From contig OMVY01000016.1 of assembly GCA_900314635.1 (NCBI GenBank), positions 1 to 32,883 on the forward strand: DNA of 32,883 nt, read 5' to 3'. The notes beneath the pieces are model-generated. The model made no database searches. It was not told the origin of the DNA and worked only from the letters and a program-made list of their open reading frames with translations. Source of the stretch: an uncultured Methanobrevibacter sp. Its GTDB lineage: Archaea; Methanobacteriota; Methanobacteria; Methanobacteriales; Methanobacteriaceae. Below are positions 18,372-32,883 of this stretch, in pieces. Position 1 is the stretch's first letter, and every line of letters starts with the position of its first letter. The position numbers were made by a program, and so were the translations under genes.

Positions 18372-20009
18372 TTGATATCTTTAGGAATTGAGGGAACTGC
18401 GGAAAAGACAGGTGTTGGAATTGTTGACAGTGATGGAAATGTCCTTGCTATTGCTGGAGAGCAATTGTACCCGAAAGAGGGAGGCATACACCCAAGGGAA
18501 GCTGCCGAACATCATGCCAAATGGATTCCTCAGCTCATTCCACAGGCACTTGATGAAGCAGGCCTTGGATACAAGGATATAGATCTTGTTTCATTCTCCC
18601 AGGGGCCGGGACTTGGTCCTGCCCTTAGAATAGTGGCTACCGCAGCAAGAACTCTTGCAGGCTCATTGAATATTCCAATCGTCGGCGTCAACCACTGCAT
18701 AGGCCATGTGGAGATTGGAAAGCTCGACACAGGTGCTAAAAACCCTGTAACTCTTTATGTAAGCGGAGGAAACAGCCAGGTGATTGCATACGAATCCGGA
18801 AGATACAGAATCTTCGGTGAGACTCTGGATATTGCTATCGGCAATTGCCTTGATCATTTCGGACGTGAAAGTGGACTTGGACATCCTGGAGGTCCGGTTA
18901 TTGAAAAGCTGGCCCTTGAAGGTTCCTATATTGACCTTCCATATGTGGTGAAAGGAATGGACTTTTCCTTCTCAGGACTCTTGAGCGCAGCACTCAGAGC
19001 TTATAAGAGAGGAGAGAAAATAGAGGATGTCTGCTACAGCCTTCAGGAAACAGCTTTTGCAATGCTTGTCGAAGTTACTGAACGTGCTCTTGCCCATACT
19101 GGAAAAAATGAGGTAATGCTTTGCGGAGGGGTTTCCGCCAACTCACATCTTAGAGAGATGATGAAAACCATGGCTGACGAGCATTTCGCCGAATTCTATT
19201 GTCCTGAAATGAAGTTTTCAGGGGACAATGGCGTGATGATTGCATGGCTCGGCCATTTGATGTATGAAACCTACGGTCCTTTGAAACTGGAGGATACCCA
19301 TATCATTCAAAGATTCAGAACCGATGAGGTTGATGCTCCATGGGTGGATAACACCATCAATAAAATAAATCTGCCTGACGAGTTGCTTGCAAAGGGAGCG
19401 GAAAGCGATATCTACAGGGCTAAATGGCTTGGAATGCCAGCTATTGTAAAGCACAGGCTTCCAAAGTCATACAGGATCGGGGAAATCGATGAAAAAATAA
19501 GGAAGCACAGGACAAAGTCTGAAGCTAAAATACTCTCTGATGTTAAAAGAGCCGGTGTGAGAGCTCCTGTCTTATATGATGTTGACTTGAAGAGGAAGGA
19601 TATCATCATGGAGGATATTCCGGGACCTATGATTAAGGATATAATGCCGGATTTAGCTCATGAAAAACGAAAGGAGCTTGCAGTTGCAATCGGCGAGACA
19701 ATAAGGGCATTCCATGATGTGGATATCATCCACGGCGATTTGACAGGCTCCAACATGATTCTTGTAGATGATAATGTGGATGACATCAAGAACAATCTTG
19801 CTGTTTTCGATTTTGGGCTTGGCAGATATTCAGATCTGCTCGAAGACAAGGCTGTGGACCTGCTTGTCTTGAAGAAGTCATTCCAAAGCGTAGATTATGA
19901 TATAGCCAGCGAAACATTCGACTGGATTTTGGATGCTTATGACAGCGACTCAAGCAAAATGAGAGACAAGATTTCTGAAATCCAATCCAGAGGCCGTTAT
20001 ACTCATTAG
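18372..20009 (+). CDS. Kae1-Bud32 fusion: tRNA t6A synthase subunit plus kinase/ATPase
   Basis: A 545-residue archaeal fusion of the two central KEOPS subunits, which make N6-threonylcarbamoyladenosine at position 37 of ANN-reading tRNAs. Kae1 (about 1-325) is an ASKHA-fold transferase with metal ligands H108 and H112 in HCIGHVE, SGGNSQV near 131-137 and the late [11 protein letters not shown]. Bud32 (about 340-545) is a small atypical kinase with the ATP-binding start [23 protein letters not shown] at 454-463 and the DFG at 480-482. The start is TTG at 18372, eight nucleotides after AAGGAG; it yields the standard [15 protein letters not shown]-terminus. Both domains look intact. Confidence 0.96.
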
Positions 20010-25395: not shown

Positions 25396-25417
25396 GATTA
25401 TCTTAATATGGATAATC
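25396..25417 (-). terminator. Hairpin at the 3' end of the AAA ATPase gene
   Basis: GATTATC (25396-25402) pairs with GATAATC (25411-25417), overlapping the stop codon. There is no long T-run after it, so a terminator role is only possible. Confidence 0.35.
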
Positions 25418-26584
25418 TCCTTTTTCTTTATGTTCTGTTTTTAGCCATGTTTTAAAAATTTGATCATATATTTTAAAACCATCTTTGTCTAATTCTATTA
25501 AAGTTTTGTTCTGCAAGGATTTCAGGGAAGCTCCTATGGCTCCGCTGGTTACTCCAAGTTTATTTGCTATTTCAATTCTTTTCAGTGGTTTTTCAACAAG
25601 AGCAGTTATGATTCTCTTTTCTTGATTATTTAGTTTATACCATTCATTGGTTAAATGAATTAACAAGTAAGGAAGTGTTTTCTTAAATTCGTAAATTATT
25701 TTTTCTTCATTCAACTCTTCGTTAGGAGGCAACAATCTAGCAAAACTATTAACATAGTATGGAATTCCATTTGTGCATTTATAAAACCTTTCAAAACCTT
25801 CATCTGTGAATTTAAGATAATCTGCTTTTTCCATTAAATAATTTTTTGTTGTATCAAAAGAAAATGTTTTTAATTCATAATTTAATATTCTGCCTCCAAA
25901 AGCACCTTTTTGGCCTGCAATATCTGCTATCAGTTCATCTTTAATGCTCATGCTTCCAGAAAAGATATATCCAATGTGGTTTTGGGATTGTATGACACTT
26001 CTAATATACCACAAGAATCCATTAACATCTTCATCAAGTTGTTTTAAGATTTGAAATTCATCTAAGAATATTAATACTCCATCAATGTCCTCTTTGCAAT
26101 CATCATATATCTGCTGAGGCAAGTCCATTGCAAAAGTAGCAAATTTCGCATAATCCTCTTGTGAGTTTAGAATTGGAATTGGAATATTATCAATTGATTC
26201 TAGTTTGTCTAATTTGAAGTTGCGGGTTTTAAAATATTTTAAAATATGTTTATCTATAGTTTTGATATTTGATTGTCTGCATGCTTTTATAATTGACTCG
26301 TAAAATAATTTCATAAAGCTAAAACGGGTTAGTTTTTCGGTTTTGAATTTATCCATTGCGGATAAATCCATGTAAACAACCAAATAATCATTTTGGAAAT
26401 CCTTTTTCAATTTTTTCATTAAGGCAGTTTTGCCCACTCCCCTAATTCCTGTGAGCAATATTGTTGGTGTTGATCCCTTTTTGGTTATTTCCAGATTATC
26501 CCGGATAAATGAAATTTCATCAATTCTGTTATAGAACTGTGCGTCATTTAAATCATTATCATTTCCTAATGGCAAGCTTGTCAT
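25403..26584 (-). CDS. Archaeal AAA ATPase with C-terminal winged helix
   Basis: A 393-residue STAND-like ATPase of the archaeal ATPase family. Walker A is LLTGIRGVGKTALMKKL (about 43-59), and Walker B is VLIFLDEFQIL (about 174-184). A sensor-like FSGSMSI follows near 210. The C-terminal part (about 315-385) reads as a winged helix: EKRIITALVEKPLKRIEIANKLGVTSGAIGASLKSLQNKTLIEL. The ATG at 26584 is preceded by AAGGTG; the frame stays open upstream for 48 more codons through the repeats, but a TATA box there argues this is non-coding. Cellular role is unknown. Relatives are often multi-copy in archaeal genomes. Confidence 0.85.
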   Translation of the reverse strand: MTSLPLGNDNDLNDAQFYNRIDEISFIRDNLEITKKGSTPTILLTGIRGVGKTALMKKLKKDFQNDYLVVYMDLSAMDKFKTEKLTRFSFMKLFYESIIKACRQSNIKTIDKHILKYFKTRNFKLDKLESIDNIPIPILNSQEDYAKFATFAMDLPQQIYDDCKEDIDGVLIFLDEFQILKQLDEDVNGFLWYIRSVIQSQNHIGYIFSGSMSIKDELIADIAGQKGAFGGRILNYELKTFSFDTTKNYLMEKADYLKFTDEGFERFYKCTNGIPYYVNSFARLLPPNEELNEEKIIYEFKKTLPYLLIHLTNEWYKLNNQEKRIITALVEKPLKRIEIANKLGVTSGAIGASLKSLQNKTLIELDKDGFKIYDQIFKTWLKTEHKEKGDYPY

Positions 26585-26621
26585 ATTTACACCTTTGTTT
26601 ATTATGTTTGGAAACATTTTA

Positions 26622-26648
26622 TATAAATATAATGGAAATTCCATTATA
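26622..26648 (-). promoter_or_regulatory. ATPase promoter: TATA box overlapping a 21-bp palindrome
   Basis: On the minus strand a TATA box, ATTTATATAAAA, lies at about 26630-26619. A perfect palindrome with arms TATAATGGAA (26628-26637) and TTCCATTATA (26639-26648) around one A overlaps its upstream edge. A site here would control access of TBP/TFB. The protein's own winged helix is a candidate binder. Confidence 0.6.
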
Positions 26649-26719
26649 ATGGGAAAAACACACATTGCATTATGTAATGGATTTTGCATTATAATGGGGA
26701 AAACACACATTGCATTATG
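26642..26719. repeat. Two 33-bp direct repeats upstream of the ATPase TATA box
   Basis: Segments 26642-26674 and 26687-26719 are identical except for one base (GGGA versus GGGG at the twelfth and thirteenth positions) and are 45 bp apart. Each contains CATTATAATG, itself palindromic, and ACACACATTGCATTATG. The 12-bp gap is too short for a CRISPR spacer. The remaining spacer up to 27076 is AT-rich, with only the AGGAG site of the next gene. Confidence 0.7.
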
Positions 26720-27076
26720 CTGCTTCAAAAACTCTCATAACATATTTAGTTTAATATTTAAGTACTTTTAAGGATTTTAATGTTGAAAAATACTATTTTC
26801 GATTTTTCCCAGGAATTAAAATAAATATTTCCATATTTTTTTTATCATCCGCTTATTTTTTCTTTTTTGTTTTTAAATCAAATTTAAACTTACATTTCTT
26901 TTAATCTGCAAAAATCTTTGTTTTAAATCGTTAAAACATTTATTTTAAGAAAAATTCCTTATTTTAATAAACTTTATTATAGATAAAAAGCAAATCTAAT
27001 ATCATAATACTTTATAATCATATTCTATGATTTAAAAAGAAACATCTTTAATTAAAAAACCTTTAGGAGTGCTATA
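26720..27076. other. Divergent AT-rich spacer between ATPase repeats and Mur ligase
   Basis: About 357 bp. It contains the presumed promoter of the Mur ligase gene, with TATA-like stretches such as CTTTATAATC near 27010, and the ribosome binding site AGGAG at 27065-27069. No gene, strong hairpin or repeat was seen. Confidence 0.4.
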
Positions 27077-28573
27077 ATGAATGTTATTGTTGTAGGAGCA
27101 GGAAATGCAGGTCGTCCTGTTGCAAGATTATTAAACTATGCCGGCCACAAGGTCAAGATAACCGATCCTAAGAATATTGAAGATTTCCATATGGATGTTC
27201 AAAAAACACTTACCCTTATGGAAAAAGAAGGAGTGGAATTGGATTTAGGAGTATTCGAGCCTAGCCTCGATGGAATTGATACAGTTTACTTGTCTCCAAC
27301 AGTTCCTGAAAACTCTCCAGCTTACAAAATCATAGCTGGTGCTGATTTGGATGTATTTTCCAATGAAGACTTTGGAAGACTGGCGGATAGTTTCATCAAA
27401 CCAGATATAATAGGCATTACAGGTAGTGTAGGTAAAACCAGTACCACCCACATGGTAAGCGAGATATTCCGTGCTGCAGGCTACAAGGTCTGGCTCTGCT
27501 CTTCAATGACTCAGAATCTGGTCAGCGAAGTCATAGTCGATGGAATAATCAAAGGCCTTCCGGATAAGGCGGACATTGCTGTTTTAGAGCTTCCTCATGG
27601 TACTGCCGGATTGATGGGCGAGCTCAGACTGAAGGTTGGAGCTTTGCTTAACATTTATGAAGAGCATTTATCCGAGTTTGGCGGATCAATGGAAAAGTAT
27701 ACAGAACGTAAAATGTTCATAACCAAGCACAGCGAGAATTTCATAACAAGCATTCATTGTAAGGACACAGTAAAAGAAGCAAGACCTGATGCAATCTTTT
27801 ACGCCATGGTAAAGGATTTGCCTGGATATGACGATGAAAAGAAGCAGAGATACTTCGATAAGATAGCTAATTTCGAAGAGATAGCCATCGGCGAAAACCA
27901 GGTATGCAATTTCATTGGAGACAGTGCTAAAGGCGCTATAGAGATTGGCTATAAATTCAGAAATAAAAACGATGAACTTTTAAAGGGAAGCTTCACATCC
28001 GAATTCCATATGATGAGTTATTATTATGAAAATGCCGTAGCTGCAACAGCTATTGCCATGGCTTATGGACTGGACCTTCCAATAATTAAAAAAGGATTAT
28101 CCAACTTCAAGGGACTGGCTGTCCATATGGAATACATAGGCGATTACAACGGTCGGGAGGTATTTGTGGATGCATCTTATCTTATTGAAGGAATTACCGC
28201 AGCTCTTGACTTTTTAGGCGACAGAGACCTTGTATTGCTGCTTGACAACTTTGATACTTCAACAAAGCGTGACAAGAAGGAAACTGGAAGACTCATGGGC
28301 AAGTATGCCGATGTCATGATTGCCACAGGTTTCAATGAAGTCTATCAGAGAGTTGACCTCGAACCTGCCCAGGAGCTGCTTGATGCCGCAGTTGACTCAA
28401 AGGCATGCAAGGTAATTGCAGGAACCATGGAAGAAGGTGCTGAGCTTGCAATCAAATATTCAAAGCCTGGAGATACCATATTGCACCTTGGACCTCAATT
28501 GATGCAGGATCCTGAAGGCATAATGGCCAAGATAGTTTCCGGTCTGGAAGAAGGTTGTAAAAAGTACGAATAG
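27077..28573 (+). CDS. Mur ligase family protein, probable pseudomurein peptide synthesis
   Basis: A 498-residue ATP-dependent amide ligase of the Mur family. Domain 1 is a Rossmann fold (VVGAGNAG, residues 5-12), like MurC/MurD. Domain 2 holds the P-loop GITGSVGKTS (113-122) and LLNIYEEHLSEFGGSMEKYTERK, which corresponds to the N-x-x-x-DHL and Mg2+-binding region. Domain 3 (about 365-498) ends with a Rossmann-like part. Methanobacteriales build pseudomurein with such ligases, adding amino acids to a UDP-linked peptide; that role is inferred. A strong AGGAG precedes the ATG. A second Mur ligase follows 240 nt downstream on the same strand. Confidence 0.85.
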   Translation: MNVIVVGAGNAGRPVARLLNYAGHKVKITDPKNIEDFHMDVQKTLTLMEKEGVELDLGVFEPSLDGIDTVYLSPTVPENSPAYKIIAGADLDVFSNEDFGRLADSFIKPDIIGITGSVGKTSTTHMVSEIFRAAGYKVWLCSSMTQNLVSEVIVDGIIKGLPDKADIAVLELPHGTAGLMGELRLKVGALLNIYEEHLSEFGGSMEKYTERKMFITKHSENFITSIHCKDTVKEARPDAIFYAMVKDLPGYDDEKKQRYFDKIANFEEIAIGENQVCNFIGDSAKGAIEIGYKFRNKNDELLKGSFTSEFHMMSYYYENAVAATAIAMAYGLDLPIIKKGLSNFKGLAVHMEYIGDYNGREVFVDASYLIEGITAALDFLGDRDLVLLLDNFDTSTKRDKKETGRLMGKYADVMIATGFNEVYQRVDLEPAQELLDAAVDSKACKVIAGTMEEGAELAIKYSKPGDTILHLGPQLMQDPEGIMAKIVSGLEEGCKKYE

Positions 28574-28813
28574 TTACAGCTCATGATTGTAAAAGGACGA
28601 ATAATTCCAGTCATTGACTGAATTAGGAATAATTCGTTTAGATATTGGCTAAAGTACAGATAATAAGTTTAAATTTTTATTTAAACTTTTAATTTTTCTT
28701 TTTTTTATTTTAATAAAATCTAATAGTGTCTCATTGGAAGAAATAAAGATTAAATCTACTGTTTAATTTAATATTCATTCAATTATTGGTTTACTTTTGT
28801 GTTGGTGTTTAAA

Positions 28814-30448
28814 ATGAATAGTTTAGAGCTTTCCAGTATGTCAGATGAGAAATTGAACTCTCTTGAACTTGACGGCAAGACATTTGGTGTTATTGGGGTA
28901 TGCGGCATAGTCGGAAATCTTGTTGCTAGAATCCTCATGGACAGAGGATACAAGGTTATAGGTACCGACATGTCTTCCAAAGAGAATTGTCGCTTTGACA
29001 GTTCATTTGAAGGCTATGATATTAAGATATATTATGGCGGACACCCAAAGGCCTTCTTTAAGGAAATCGATTATGTCTTCGTCCCTCCAAGCCTGCCGAA
29101 AAAAGCCAAGGTCTTTGATTTCATCGAAGAAGCAGACATATGCATCCTGGAGCTTGGAGACATATTCAAACTGTTCAAACCAGATAAGAAGGTCATCTGC
29201 ATAAGCGGAACAAACGGTAAAACCACAACAACACAGCTGCTTAAAAAAATAGCTTATTCTGCAGGCTTGAAACCCTGTGAACATAATTTGGAAGGCATGC
29301 AGGGCAATAATGAATTCATTCCATCCCTGCAGGACAGATTGAACGGCGACATTGCCATACTTGAAACAGGAACCGATGGAACTCCTGGAGGATTGAAATC
29401 AGTTGTCGATTTGACCCATCCTAATTTCGCTATACTTACAAACATCACACCTGACCATCTAGTGGATCCGGAAAATACTGACAAGCACAAAGGCTTCCTT
29501 GATTATGCCAAAGTAAAGGGAGAGCTGATTCAAGGCATAGAAGAAAATGAAGGAACATTGATCTACAACAGCGACGACCCTACAGTGGTTGGACTTTTAC
29601 AAGAGTTGGACTACCAGGGTAAATCTATAAGCTTCGGCCTCGATTATGATAATGAATCATCTTCTACTAAGCCATGCTGGTGCGGCAGGGAAATAGAGAT
29701 TGATGAGGTTATCTATGGCTGTGGAGTTTATGACTGCGAATGCGGCATAAGATATGAAAAACCTGATTATATTGCAAGCAATATTTCATTGGAAAATAGA
29801 AGCTTCACTCTTGAAGGCCCTGATGGAGTTTATGGTTTCAAATTAGCCATGGATGGTCTTCATAACATCTACAATGCAGTCGGGGCGATTATCGCTTCTC
29901 GCATATTCCTGGACCTATCAGATGATGAGATACAGAATGGATTGTCTCAATTCACTGGAGCACTTGGCAGAATGGAAGTCATGGGAGAGGTCGAAGGCAA
30001 GACAATAATGGTCGACTATGCACATAATCCTGCAGGTGTCAAATCAGTATTGCAGGCTGTGGATGAGATTTATGACAAGGTTGCAGTTGTAATTACCGTC
30101 ACCTCCGAATCTGGAGAGGAAGGGGATATTGAAATTCTTAAAAATGCGATTGGAAATGTGGATTATATCATTCCGGCATCATATGACTGCAAGGCTGCTG
30201 CAGATAAGCTTCTCTCCATTGCAAGTGAAGGAGAGGGTGATTATGACTTAAATCTGCTTTCATCAATCTTCGTCTTCACTGAAGGAGAAATGGAGCAGAA
30301 GGGAGTTCGCACTTTAGGAGCCAGCCAGGAGCAGGTTCTGAATGGCCTTGAAACTGCATTGAAAACCGATGCAGACCTTGTATTATGTCTCGGCGAGGCG
30401 GCTTTCAAATTCGATCCTGCAATCAAGGACTTTTGTAAAAATCAGTAA
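28814..30448 (+). CDS. Mur ligase family protein with four-cysteine (MurT-like) insertion
   Basis: A 544-residue second Mur-type ligase. Domain 1 has a Rossmann-like GVIGVCGIVGN (25-35), domain 2 the P-loop ISGTNGKTTTTQ (130-141) and TNITPDHL (209-216). Near the C-terminal domain is GRMEVMGEVEGKTIMVDYAHNPAG. Residues 286-312 carry CWCG and CECG (C288, C290, C308, C310), resembling the zinc ribbon inserted in MurT, the lipid II-amidating ligase of Gram-positive bacteria. MurT normally works with GatD; no glutamine amidotransferase is present here. The ATG at 28814 follows GGTG; the in-frame GTG at 28799 lies before that site. A pseudomurein role is inferred. Confidence 0.85.
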   Translation: MNSLELSSMSDEKLNSLELDGKTFGVIGVCGIVGNLVARILMDRGYKVIGTDMSSKENCRFDSSFEGYDIKIYYGGHPKAFFKEIDYVFVPPSLPKKAKVFDFIEEADICILELGDIFKLFKPDKKVICISGTNGKTTTTQLLKKIAYSAGLKPCEHNLEGMQGNNEFIPSLQDRLNGDIAILETGTDGTPGGLKSVVDLTHPNFAILTNITPDHLVDPENTDKHKGFLDYAKVKGELIQGIEENEGTLIYNSDDPTVVGLLQELDYQGKSISFGLDYDNESSSTKPCWCGREIEIDEVIYGCGVYDCECGIRYEKPDYIASNISLENRSFTLEGPDGVYGFKLAMDGLHNIYNAVGAIIASRIFLDLSDDEIQNGLSQFTGALGRMEVMGEVEGKTIMVDYAHNPAGVKSVLQAVDEIYDKVAVVITVTSESGEEGDIEILKNAIGNVDYIIPASYDCKAAADKLLSIASEGEGDYDLNLLSSIFVFTEGEMEQKGVRTLGASQEQVLNGLETALKTDADLVLCLGEAAFKFDPAIKDFCKNQ

Positions 30449-30583: not shown

Positions 30584-31471
30584 ATGATACTTAATGCAAG
30601 CGGCAGAACTGATATAGTGGCATTCTACACCCCATGGTTCATGAACCGCTACCACGAAGGATTTCTCGATGTTCGAAATCCCTTCAATCGCGACATGGTG
30701 AGCAGAATAAATTTTGATGATGTCGATCTCATATCCTTCTGCACCAAAAATCCCACTCCAATCGTTAAAAGGATTGGGGAGATTGAAAAACCCATTCAAT
30801 TTCAGGTGACCTTGACAGCCTACGGCAGGGATATCGAACCTCAGGTTCCCCTCAAAGCCCGAACAATCAAATATATTAAGAAAATAGCGCCAATCATAGG
30901 CAAGGAGAATATTACAATCAGATATGATCCTATCCTGTTTAATGACAAGTATGACCTTGAATATCATATCGACAAATTTGACAAGTACTGCAAGTCATTA
31001 AACGGCTATGCAGACAGGCTCACCATTCATTTTGTGGATGACTACAAGAATGCAAGGAGAAACAGGGATGTTTTAAGCTACAGGGAAGTGACAGACAATG
31101 ACTACAAGGTCATTGGAGAAAACTTTGCAAGAAGCGCCAAGGAAAACGACATGACTGTCTTTGCCTGTTTTGAAGACAGGAATCTCTGTGAATACGGATT
31201 TTCCCATGATGAATGCCTTTCACCAGCCCTTGCATACAAGCTCACCGGCAAGGAATATCCAAGATGGACTGCCCGAGAAGGCAACAAGTGTCATTGTGTT
31301 CAAATGGCTGATGTCGGAGAATATAATACCTGCCGTCACTTCTGCAAGTACTGCTATGCAAATTATGATGAAAAAAGAGTCAGAAGCAACTGCAAGGTTC
31401 ATTACGAGGATTCTTCACTTTTAATAGGTCGTTTGAAGAAAAATGATGTAATCAAGCTTCGAAAAAACTGA
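30584..31471 (+). CDS. DUF1848 family protein with C-terminal cysteine cluster
   Basis: A 295-residue protein of the uncharacterised DUF1848 family. The N-terminal signature is LNASGRTDIVAFYTPWFMNR, followed by FCTKNPTPIV and FQVTLTAYGRDIEPQVP; the alternating strands and helices look like a TIM-barrel-type fold. Near the C-terminus are C236, C238, C250, C254 and C257; the last three form CxxxCxxC, the spacing of radical-SAM 4Fe-4S sites, though at the opposite end from classical enzymes. AAGGT lies before the ATG. It is 198 nt upstream of the macrodomain gene on the same strand but that gene has its own promoter. Reaction and substrate are unknown. Confidence 0.85.
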   Translation: MILNASGRTDIVAFYTPWFMNRYHEGFLDVRNPFNRDMVSRINFDDVDLISFCTKNPTPIVKRIGEIEKPIQFQVTLTAYGRDIEPQVPLKARTIKYIKKIAPIIGKENITIRYDPILFNDKYDLEYHIDKFDKYCKSLNGYADRLTIHFVDDYKNARRNRDVLSYREVTDNDYKVIGENFARSAKENDMTVFACFEDRNLCEYGFSHDECLSPALAYKLTGKEYPRWTAREGNKCHCVQMADVGEYNTCRHFCKYCYANYDEKRVRSNCKVHYEDSSLLIGRLKKNDVIKLRKN

Positions 31472-31597
31472 TTTTCTTAAAATTTATCATATTCAAAAAG
31501 ACCTTCTTTCATTTCATCATTTTTCAAATTTTTTCTTCTTTTTTAAAACTCCATTTTTGTTTCATTGGATATTTTGCATTTTTTTATTTCTGTTTTA

Positions 31598-31648
31598 TTT
31601 ATATACTCTTAAACCTAATATTATAATAGATTAAAAAATATTAAAGGT
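31598..31648 (+). promoter_or_regulatory. Promoter of the macrodomain-sirtuin operon
   Basis: A TATA box, TTTATATACTC, is at about 31598-31608. Downstream, at the expected start region, an imperfect inverted repeat pairs ACCTAATATT (31613-31622) with AATATT-AA-AGGT (31637-31648). GGTGGT (31661-31666) is the ribosome binding site of the macrodomain gene. Confidence 0.45.
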
Positions 31649-31669
31649 AATTTAAGATATGGTGGTATA

Positions 31670-32479
31670 ATGGAAAACATCGATGCTTTAATTGAATACT
31701 TGATAAATGACAATCCCCGTTATCATGTAAGCGAGGAGCCGGAGACCTTTGAAGACAAGTTCAGAATATACCGCAGCCTGGTGAATATCAGGAATCCGAA
31801 TCCTGTTGATGATGATTATGTGGAAATGGAAAATGAAATGCTTCAGGAGCTGCTTTTAAAAAAAGAGATAAGCTCTTTTGAAGATATTGAAACAATAGGA
31901 GTCAAATATCCTCAAACAAAGCTTAATCATAAGGATATCCTGGCTCTCTGGCAGGGAGACATATGTACTCTTGAAATAGATACTATTGTAAATGCTGCAA
32001 ATTCACAGGGGCTGGGATGCTTCATACCATGCCATGACTGCATCGACAATAAGATTCACACTAATGCCGGAGTCAAGTTAAGACTTGAATGCTATCAGGA
32101 GATGCAGAAGTACGATTATACCCTGCCTTCAGGAACATGCCTCTTTACCGATGCCTATAACCTTCCTTCAAAACATGTCATCCATACTGTCGGTCCTGTT
32201 GTAACTGGACATCTCACCGATAGAAAGCGTGATGACCTTGCCAAATGTTATAGAAACTGTCTTGAAATATGCATCGAACATGGAATAAGGTCTATTGCAT
32301 TCTGCAGCATTTCAACAGGAGTGTTCAGATTTCCAAAAGACGAGGCATGCAGAATCGCAGTCACTACAGTTGAAGAAGTGCTTGATGAAAATCCTGATGC
32401 CTTTGACAAAGTGGTTTTCAATGTATTTTCAGACGAGCAGCTATCTATTTATGAGGATTTTATTAAGAATAGGGGTTAG
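31670..32479 (+). CDS. Zinc-dependent macrodomain protein (ADP-ribosylhydrolase, SirTM-linked type)
   Basis: A 269-residue macrodomain of the zinc-containing class that removes ADP-ribose from proteins modified by SirTM. A helical N-terminal extension (1-85) precedes the macrodomain (about 88-265), as in the staphylococcal and streptococcal enzymes. Visible are DTIVNAANSQGLG (104-116), the zinc ligands C117, H122 and C124 in GCFIPCHDC followed by IDNKIH, and the phosphate loop SISTGVF (213-219). GGTGGT precedes the ATG. The next gene, 39 nt downstream, is SirTM itself, so the pair can write and erase the same mark. All key residues of the class appear present. Confidence 0.92.
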   Translation: MENIDALIEYLINDNPRYHVSEEPETFEDKFRIYRSLVNIRNPNPVDDDYVEMENEMLQELLLKKEISSFEDIETIGVKYPQTKLNHKDILALWQGDICTLEIDTIVNAANSQGLGCFIPCHDCIDNKIHTNAGVKLRLECYQEMQKYDYTLPSGTCLFTDAYNLPSKHVIHTVGPVVTGHLTDRKRDDLAKCYRNCLEICIEHGIRSIAFCSISTGVFRFPKDEACRIAVTTVEEVLDENPDAFDKVVFNVFSDEQLSIYEDFIKNRG

Positions 32480-32518
32480 TCGATTTCTTTAAATTTCATT
32501 AACTATAGGGTTGAGAGT

Positions 32519-32883
32519 ATGGAAAGTTTGAACGAACGTATTGAAAAATTAAGGAATCTAATTGAAACATCTGACCACATCATCATAGGTGCAGGTGCGG
32601 GATTATCCACTGCAGCAGGAATTGAATATGGAGGGGAGCGTTTCAAAAAGCATTTTGCAGACTTCATCAAGAAGTATGATTTCACAGACATGTATACTTC
32701 AGGATTCTATCCCTTTAAAAGCGAGGAGGAGAAATGGGCCTACTGGGCTCGTCATATCAGCGTGAACAATGTGGACATGCCGGCAACCAGCCTTTATGGA
32801 AAACTGCTTGATCTCGTTGAAGACAAGGATTATTTTGTAATAACCACAAACGTGGACGACCAGTTCTTCAAAACAGGATTTGA
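32519..32883 (+). CDS. Class M sirtuin (SirTM), protein ADP-ribosyltransferase, partial
   Basis: The first 121 residues of a Sir2-family protein, cut by the window end. The NAD-binding motif is IIIGAGAGLSTAAGIEY (21-37), followed by the class M segments GGERFKKHFADFIKKYDFTDMYTSGFYPF and WAYWARHI, and the TTNVDDQF motif at 109-116 in place of the usual TQNID. These features separate SirTM from deacetylase sirtuins; members ADP-ribosylate, in known bacteria, a lipoylated GcvH-like carrier. The ATG follows AGGGTTGAG. It starts 39 nt after the macrodomain gene. The catalytic core beyond residue 121 and any further operon genes lie outside the window. Confidence 0.9.
   Translation, partial: MESLNERIEKLRNLIETSDHIIIGAGAGLSTAAGIEYGGERFKKHFADFIKKYDFTDMYTSGFYPFKSEEEKWAYWARHISVNNVDMPATSLYGKLLDLVEDKDYFVITTNVDDQFFKTGF

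Follow-up and report, generated by a model that had tools for sequence, protein, structure and literature searches.

A gut-type methanogen of the Methanobacteriaceae carries adjacent, co-directional genes for a zinc-type macrodomain and a class M sirtuin (SirTM), both with all catalytic and zinc residues in place. We consider it probable (roughly 0.78) that this minimal operon constitutes a reversible ADP-ribosylation switch acting on a lipoyl-free, probably redox-linked acceptor outside the two-gene unit. The DNA analyzed here, referred to as the window, is a stretch of 32,883 nucleotides that represents contig C30 of a draft genome (2.29 Mb, 36 contigs, 96.8% complete). A sequence-only reading had named the pair as its best candidate for an undescribed variant system. 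This view had to be abandoned, as the minimal Zn-Macro/SirTM operon has already been published, including a structure from Methanobrevibacter oralis. The macrodomain was found in 49 of 78 good-quality Methanobacteriaceae genomes; the lipoate-free form is therefore a standing archaeal feature and the window pair is one more member of the published kind. What is new here is the recurrence of DUF1848 genes in or beside SirTM/macrodomain operons. The features discussed below are the following:

27077..28573, + strand, pMurD1 pseudomurein peptide ligase (NF053646, 731 bits), left flank, outside the system
28799..30448, + strand, pMurC pseudomurein peptide ligase (NF053645, 704 bits), left flank, outside the system
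30584..31471, + strand, DUF1848 protein, 295 aa, candidate third component (PF08902, 2.3e-82)
31472..31669, + strand, AT-rich gap of 198 bases: T-runs behind the DUF1848 gene, TATA-like TTTATATA, Shine-Dalgarno-like GGTGGT just before the macrodomain ATG (from the sequence)
31670..32479, + strand, Zn-macrodomain (protein-ADP-ribose hydrolase), 269 aa (PF01661, E=7.5e-36)
32018..32041, + strand, Zn-loop Cx4HxC of the macrodomain, C117, H122 and C124 (from the sequence; motif definition from PMC11490716)
32519..32883, + strand, SirTM, first 121 codons plus two bases, running off the contig (5A3A alignment, invariant catalytic residues)

The macrodomain-SirTM pair and its contig

The macrodomain scored 305 bits with the NCBIfam model for protein-ADP-ribose hydrolases (NF003163, cut-off 272). 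Its nearest solved structures are SauMacro (5KIV/8RSL) and MorMacro (8RSI), with E=3e-60 or better, and the structure of the Streptococcus pyogenes Zn-macrodomain was matched as well. The Cx(4)HxC Zn-loop defines the Zn-Macro subfamily (PMC11490716), and the three zinc residues proposed from the sequence alone were found exactly in this spacing and at the positions claimed. The NAAN motif is present (N108-N111), and so is the N-terminal extension, a 3-alpha bundle: about 90 residues ahead of the Macro domain align to 5KIV/8RSI. The protein is predicted to act as a hydrolase. Zn-macrodomain genes without an adjoining SirTM occur at two other loci (L048 in genome G120 and L053 in G124).

The SirTM gene starts 39 bases past the macrodomain stop on the same strand and is thus directly linked to a Zn-macrodomain. 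The final 99 bases of the window are an exact match, in reversed orientation, to the end of contig C23, on which the gene resumes from 82236 downwards on the minus strand (19300-19837 of locus L003). The joined ORF is in frame and encodes 300 aa, and the join is supported by the unbroken alignment of its product to SpySirTM (5A3A) across the junction (7.5e-51). That a class M sirtuin directly follows the macrodomain was confirmed on this joined protein. QG stands in place of the usual HG (FATQGTYAKIQC, Q130-G131), and N118, Q137 and R192 of SpySirTM, the mutation of which abolishes activity (PMC4518038), correspond to N111, Q130 and R186 in the 5A3A alignment. QG and these residues are invariant in nine archaeal sequences. 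The pyrophosphate motif GVGx[NT]TP reads GVGFNTP (residues 222-228). Chance is excluded for the observation as such, and ADP-ribosyltransferase activity is predicted for SirTM. M. olleyae-type genomes contain a second, degenerate SirTM gene after the pair (L034, 10603-11457; L035, 11054-11908), in which QG has become NG and the glycine-rich GAG has become AGG while the zinc-ribbon cysteines are kept; the copy in L035 has also lost the catalytic Asn. These second genes look like pseudo-enzymes retained beside the active copy.

To the left, the pair is accompanied by DUF1848, pMurC and pMurD1, and to the right by adhesin-like ORFs only: beyond SirTM, contig C23 shows about 500 AT-rich bases and then two very large ORFs of this type. 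The AT-rich gap ahead of the macrodomain suggests that the pair has its own putative promoter; RNA folding of the 198 bases gave nothing beyond chance (z=0.39). In the macrodomain tree, the window sequence groups with Methanosphaera-type sequences, without strong support (88/90), and stands apart from the type that most congeners carry. The idea that the contig is a Methanosphaera contamination was nevertheless ruled out by pMurD1, which is 87-90% identical to that of most congeners as opposed to 41-48% (or partial) for genus g12; the contig is therefore correctly binned. Elsewhere, near-identical contigs were binned to two genera (L036 on G018:C61 and L049 on G126:C3), which probably reflects cross-contamination between co-assembled genomes. 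Further upstream in the window, an ORF for a predicted ATPase-like protein (25403-26728, minus strand) has a repeated HNAMCVFPIIM segment among its first residues, which suggests that the start codon was misassigned across a short repeat in the DNA.

Lipoate genes and the proposed switch

SirTM/macrodomain pairs occur as independent as well as extended operons (Rack et al., 2015, PMC4518038). The earlier statement that the bacterial pair acts on GcvH-L is correct only where Lactobacillales and Staphylococcaceae carry the extended operon and does not stand as a general one. With the extended operon of S. aureus and S. pyogenes (GcvH-L, Zn-Macro, SirTM, LplA2, OYE, LLM; PMC4518038) the window shares a SirTM with QG and the N/Q/R triad as well as an adjacent, co-directional Zn-macrodomain. 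It differs in that none of GcvH-L, LplA2, OYE and LLM adjoins the pair on either flank and in that the host genome contains neither GcvH nor a lipoate ligase. The lipoyl target had been described as not visible on the left side; this holds, and the absence extends to the right flank and to the entire genome. Past 32883, where GcvH-L or a lipoate ligase was specifically sought, the end of SirTM is followed by the adhesin-like ORFs, and the pair thus stands alone as a minimal operon. A profile search with GCV_H gave no match in the whole genome, while 13 of 14 control genomes were positive in the same search. Biotin_lipoyl (PF00364) matched a single protein, the pyruvate carboxylase subunit PycB with its biotin site EAMKMEN, so that the only domain of this type is biotinyl. 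The one match to BPL_LplA_LipB is the biotin ligase BirA (TIGR00121, 216 bits), and the LplA catalytic family LplA-B_cat (PF21948) reached at best 14.9 bits, with the same BirA gene and no lipoate ligase above the cut-off. Within the reach of a 97%-complete draft, lipoyl target and ligase are absent; as the genome is in 36 contigs and 96.8% complete, a missing gene cannot be wholly ruled out.

Among the closest described counterparts is the minimal operon of M. oralis, the macrodomain of which (MorMacro) has been crystallized (Ariza et al., 2024, PMC11490716; PDB 8RSI/8RSJ/8RSK). MorMacro demodifies PARP1 E988Q but fails to do so with SpyGcvH-L, and its natural target is stated as an open question in the same work (PMC11490716). 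Both operons belong to the same genus-level group and share the two-gene layout, the Cx4HxC Zn-loop, the N-terminal extension and the lack of lipoate genes in the operon. The window differs by its macrodomain, which lies on a Methanosphaera-like branch instead of the branch typical of congeners, and by the DUF1848 gene upstream. The fungal fusion Mfs1 (8RSN) combines a macrodomain and a SirTM in identical order and is likewise independent of an operon-encoded GcvH-L, whereas the window encodes two separate proteins.

Since the organism possesses neither a lipoylated GcvH-L nor a lipoate ligase, the acceptor must be a different one. In the switch that we propose, SirTM would use NAD+ to place a single ADP-ribose on the acceptor, probably on an Asp or Glu side chain of one protein if GcvH-L may serve as a guide. 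The Zn-macrodomain would take the ADP-ribose off again, and the balance of both reactions would set the activity of the acceptor. For relatives, transfer of ADP-ribose to an acidic residue and its removal by the Zn-macrodomain have been published, and the SirTM systems of S. aureus and Candida albicans have been argued to be redox-responsive. By analogy with these better-known relatives, the switch in the methanogen probably responds to redox state or to oxidative stress.

The neighbors of related pairs fit a redox-responsive system. We compared genes near the pair (-3.5 to +2.5 kb) with those farther away over 101 loci and obtained near/far counts of 32/4 for HxlR regulators, 25/0 for PNPOx-like flavoproteins, 11/0 for MBL-fold proteins and 9/2 for Rrf2. 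In the window itself, neither a gene of these four kinds nor a peroxidase gene lies next to the pair. An enrichment of glutathione peroxidases, suggested by an early count of Methanosphaera pairs, disappeared when all loci were included (near/far 5/4, p=0.25). At six Methanosphaera-type loci (L036, L050, L051, L052, L053 and L056), genes resembling glutathione peroxidase and flavodoxin come after the pair or the macrodomain in conserved order.

DUF1848 as a candidate third component

The gene upstream of the pair on the same strand, 30584-31471, was absent from the sequence-only reading. The DUF1848 protein that it encodes is the strongest candidate in the neighborhood, either as a target of the switch or as a functional partner. 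We tentatively suggest, at odds somewhat below even, that it may be a working third component and not a chance neighbor; it could be the target, a partner that depends on a cofactor, or a repair enzyme acting downstream. Among 103 SirTM loci, 11 have a DUF1848 gene in or beside the SirTM/macrodomain cluster; these come from archaea, Clostridia, Sporomusa, Acetobacterium, Bacilli and Bacteroidales. The gene orders comprise SirTM-DUF1848-macrodomain (L079), macrodomain-SirTM-DUF1848 (L073, L124) and DUF1848-macrodomain-SirTM (L104, L088, L068), and in Sporomusa DUF1848 lies between SirTM and macrodomain. The near/far count is 10/1 over the 101 loci (p=6e-4). Among 391 evenly sampled Clostridia genomes, DUF1848 and a Zn-macrodomain occur together in 27, more than expected (Fisher p=3e-4), and the two genes are adjacent on one strand in four Clostridia genomes (three without the seed) versus 0.09 expected. 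We read 80 further DUF1848 loci. They yielded one macrodomain-SirTM-DUF1848 cluster (L177), in which a stop or frameshift interrupts the macrodomain gene, three pairs of DUF1848 with a canonical MacroD (L166, L182, L188) and one with a CobB-type sirtuin (L210), the MacroD and CobB neighbors being independent of SirTM. The count of DUF1848 with a sirtuin or macrodomain was eight versus about 0.6 expected (P ~1.6e-7, for an assumed base rate of six such genes per genome). At two loci, DUF1848 stands beside DNA alkylation-repair genes, named by eye and similarity as Ogt/AlkA-like (L170) and Ada/Ogt-like (L176).

The setting of the trio also bears on this suggestion. Synteny with congeners stops just past pMurC. 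In two of them (G019, G021) adhesin-like genes directly follow pMurC, so that the site is cleanly empty there, which counts in favor of a third component, and in two others (G032, G018) pMurC is followed by unrelated genes. As none of these four carries the trio at the pMurC site, the DUF1848-macrodomain-SirTM block is a lineage-specific insertion. The same gene order is found in a Bacilli locus (L068), which also has the closest DUF1848 (61%, 100/100 sister). A transfer of all three genes as one block with L068 is supported by DUF1848, not rejected by the macrodomain (common clade retained, p-AU 0.22) and rejected by SirTM (p-AU 0.0007). Since the SirTM clade with L068 is rejected although gene order and DUF1848 point to this locus, more than one origin of the arrangement is probable, which counts in favor of a third component; the retained macrodomain clade counts against it.

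Several further observations count against a third component. About 88% of the sampled Clostridia DUF1848 genes stand away from any sirtuin or macrodomain. Of the other Methanobacteriaceae DUF1848 matches, none for which a comparison by contig was possible adjoins a sirtuin or macrodomain, and within the family only the window genome has DUF1848 next to the pair. Moreover, the 198-base gap with its likely promoter separates DUF1848 from the pair in the window, and the P values for the association treat the genomes as independent and depend on a base rate that was guessed. Taken by count, the association of DUF1848 with sirtuins and macrodomains is real but partial.

The sequence and predicted structure of DUF1848 offer a hint at its nature. 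Invariant in 28 homologs are C195, C211, C236 and C238 together with a C-terminal CX3CX2C (C250, C254, C257), the cluster motif of radical SAM proteins. An AlphaFold2 model (pLDDT 89.6, pTM 0.89) matched spore photoproduct lyase (4K9R, 4FHF) in Foldseek with a probability of 0.99-1.00, TM 0.34-0.42 and E 0.004-0.006; many other barrel-type matches had slightly better E-values and poorer overlap. The model thus weakly resembles spore photoproduct lyase, a radical SAM enzyme. Common to both are the partial fold match and a CX3CX2C followed by a YCYA-like sequence, whereas the cysteine motif is C-terminal in DUF1848 and lies in the N-terminal part of the lyase. Comparison with PDB sequences gave no significant match for DUF1848. 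Both the C-terminal cluster motif and the partial sequential match would be accounted for if DUF1848 were a radical SAM protein with circular permutation. Sequence did not establish such a permutation: artificially permuted DUF1848 matched Radical_SAM in Pfam over the length of the cysteine motif only (E=0.0035 at best). We regard it as unlikely that DUF1848 is a circularly permuted, spore photoproduct lyase-like radical SAM protein that works with the SirTM/macrodomain pair as target or gated enzyme and replaces lipoyl-GcvH-L. If true, some 'minimal' operons would be three-component systems in which NAD+-dependent tagging is linked to redox or nucleic-acid repair chemistry. The open-access literature searched contained no mention of DUF1848 and no paper that brings sirtuin, macrodomain and radical SAM together.

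Other readings and significance

Lipoyl and biotinyl carrier folds are related, and PycB, the only PF00364 protein, is the sole biotin/lipoyl-type carrier of the genome, its cofactor being supplied by BirA. The biotinyl carrier domain of PycB could therefore be thought of as a stand-in for lipoyl-GcvH-L. This is improbable, as PycB is unlinked to the pair in every locus examined and as biotinyl-BCCP is not modified by SpySirTM or SauSirTM (PMC4518038).

Other macrodomain/ADP-ribosyltransferase pairs, DarTG for example, are toxin-antitoxin systems, and the window DUF1848 is matched by RTasDUF1848, a PADLOC model of defense-associated reverse transcriptases (DRT, 2.4e-29). An anti-phage or toxin-antitoxin module with SirTM as toxin and the macrodomain as antidote is nonetheless a very improbable reading. 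No PADLOC model matched the macrodomain or SirTM, only two fragmentary relatives were present in 2.9 million viral contigs, and several archaeal lineages keep the gene order from species to species, with housekeeping genes as neighbors. One of the two viral-collection matches (L136, IMG/VR) is a pair of macrodomain and SirTM fragments on a viral-labeled contig and could be a host fragment.

Hardly any weight can be given to the known lipoate-dependent extended operon of bacteria, acquired by transfer with its accessory genes lying just beyond the window. The interleaved archaeal and bacterial clades of the SirTM tree do show that members of this family have been transferred, but the window SirTM falls inside an archaeal clade (99/99) that also includes Methanosphaera and congeners, and for this assembly the reading is refuted by the flanking genes and by the searches with GCV_H, Biotin_lipoyl, BPL_LplA_LipB and LplA-B_cat.

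The proposed switch on a lipoyl-free acceptor bears on a question posed in the literature, namely which targets minimal SirTM/Zn-Macro systems have, GcvH-L being the only known SirTM substrate. A methanogen devoid of a lipoate pathway indicates that the switch can persist without the lipoyl cofactor and offers a small genome for target hunting. The association with DUF1848 provides a named candidate, and the enrichment of HxlR and PNPOx genes points to control by redox state, as for the bacterial and fungal counterparts.
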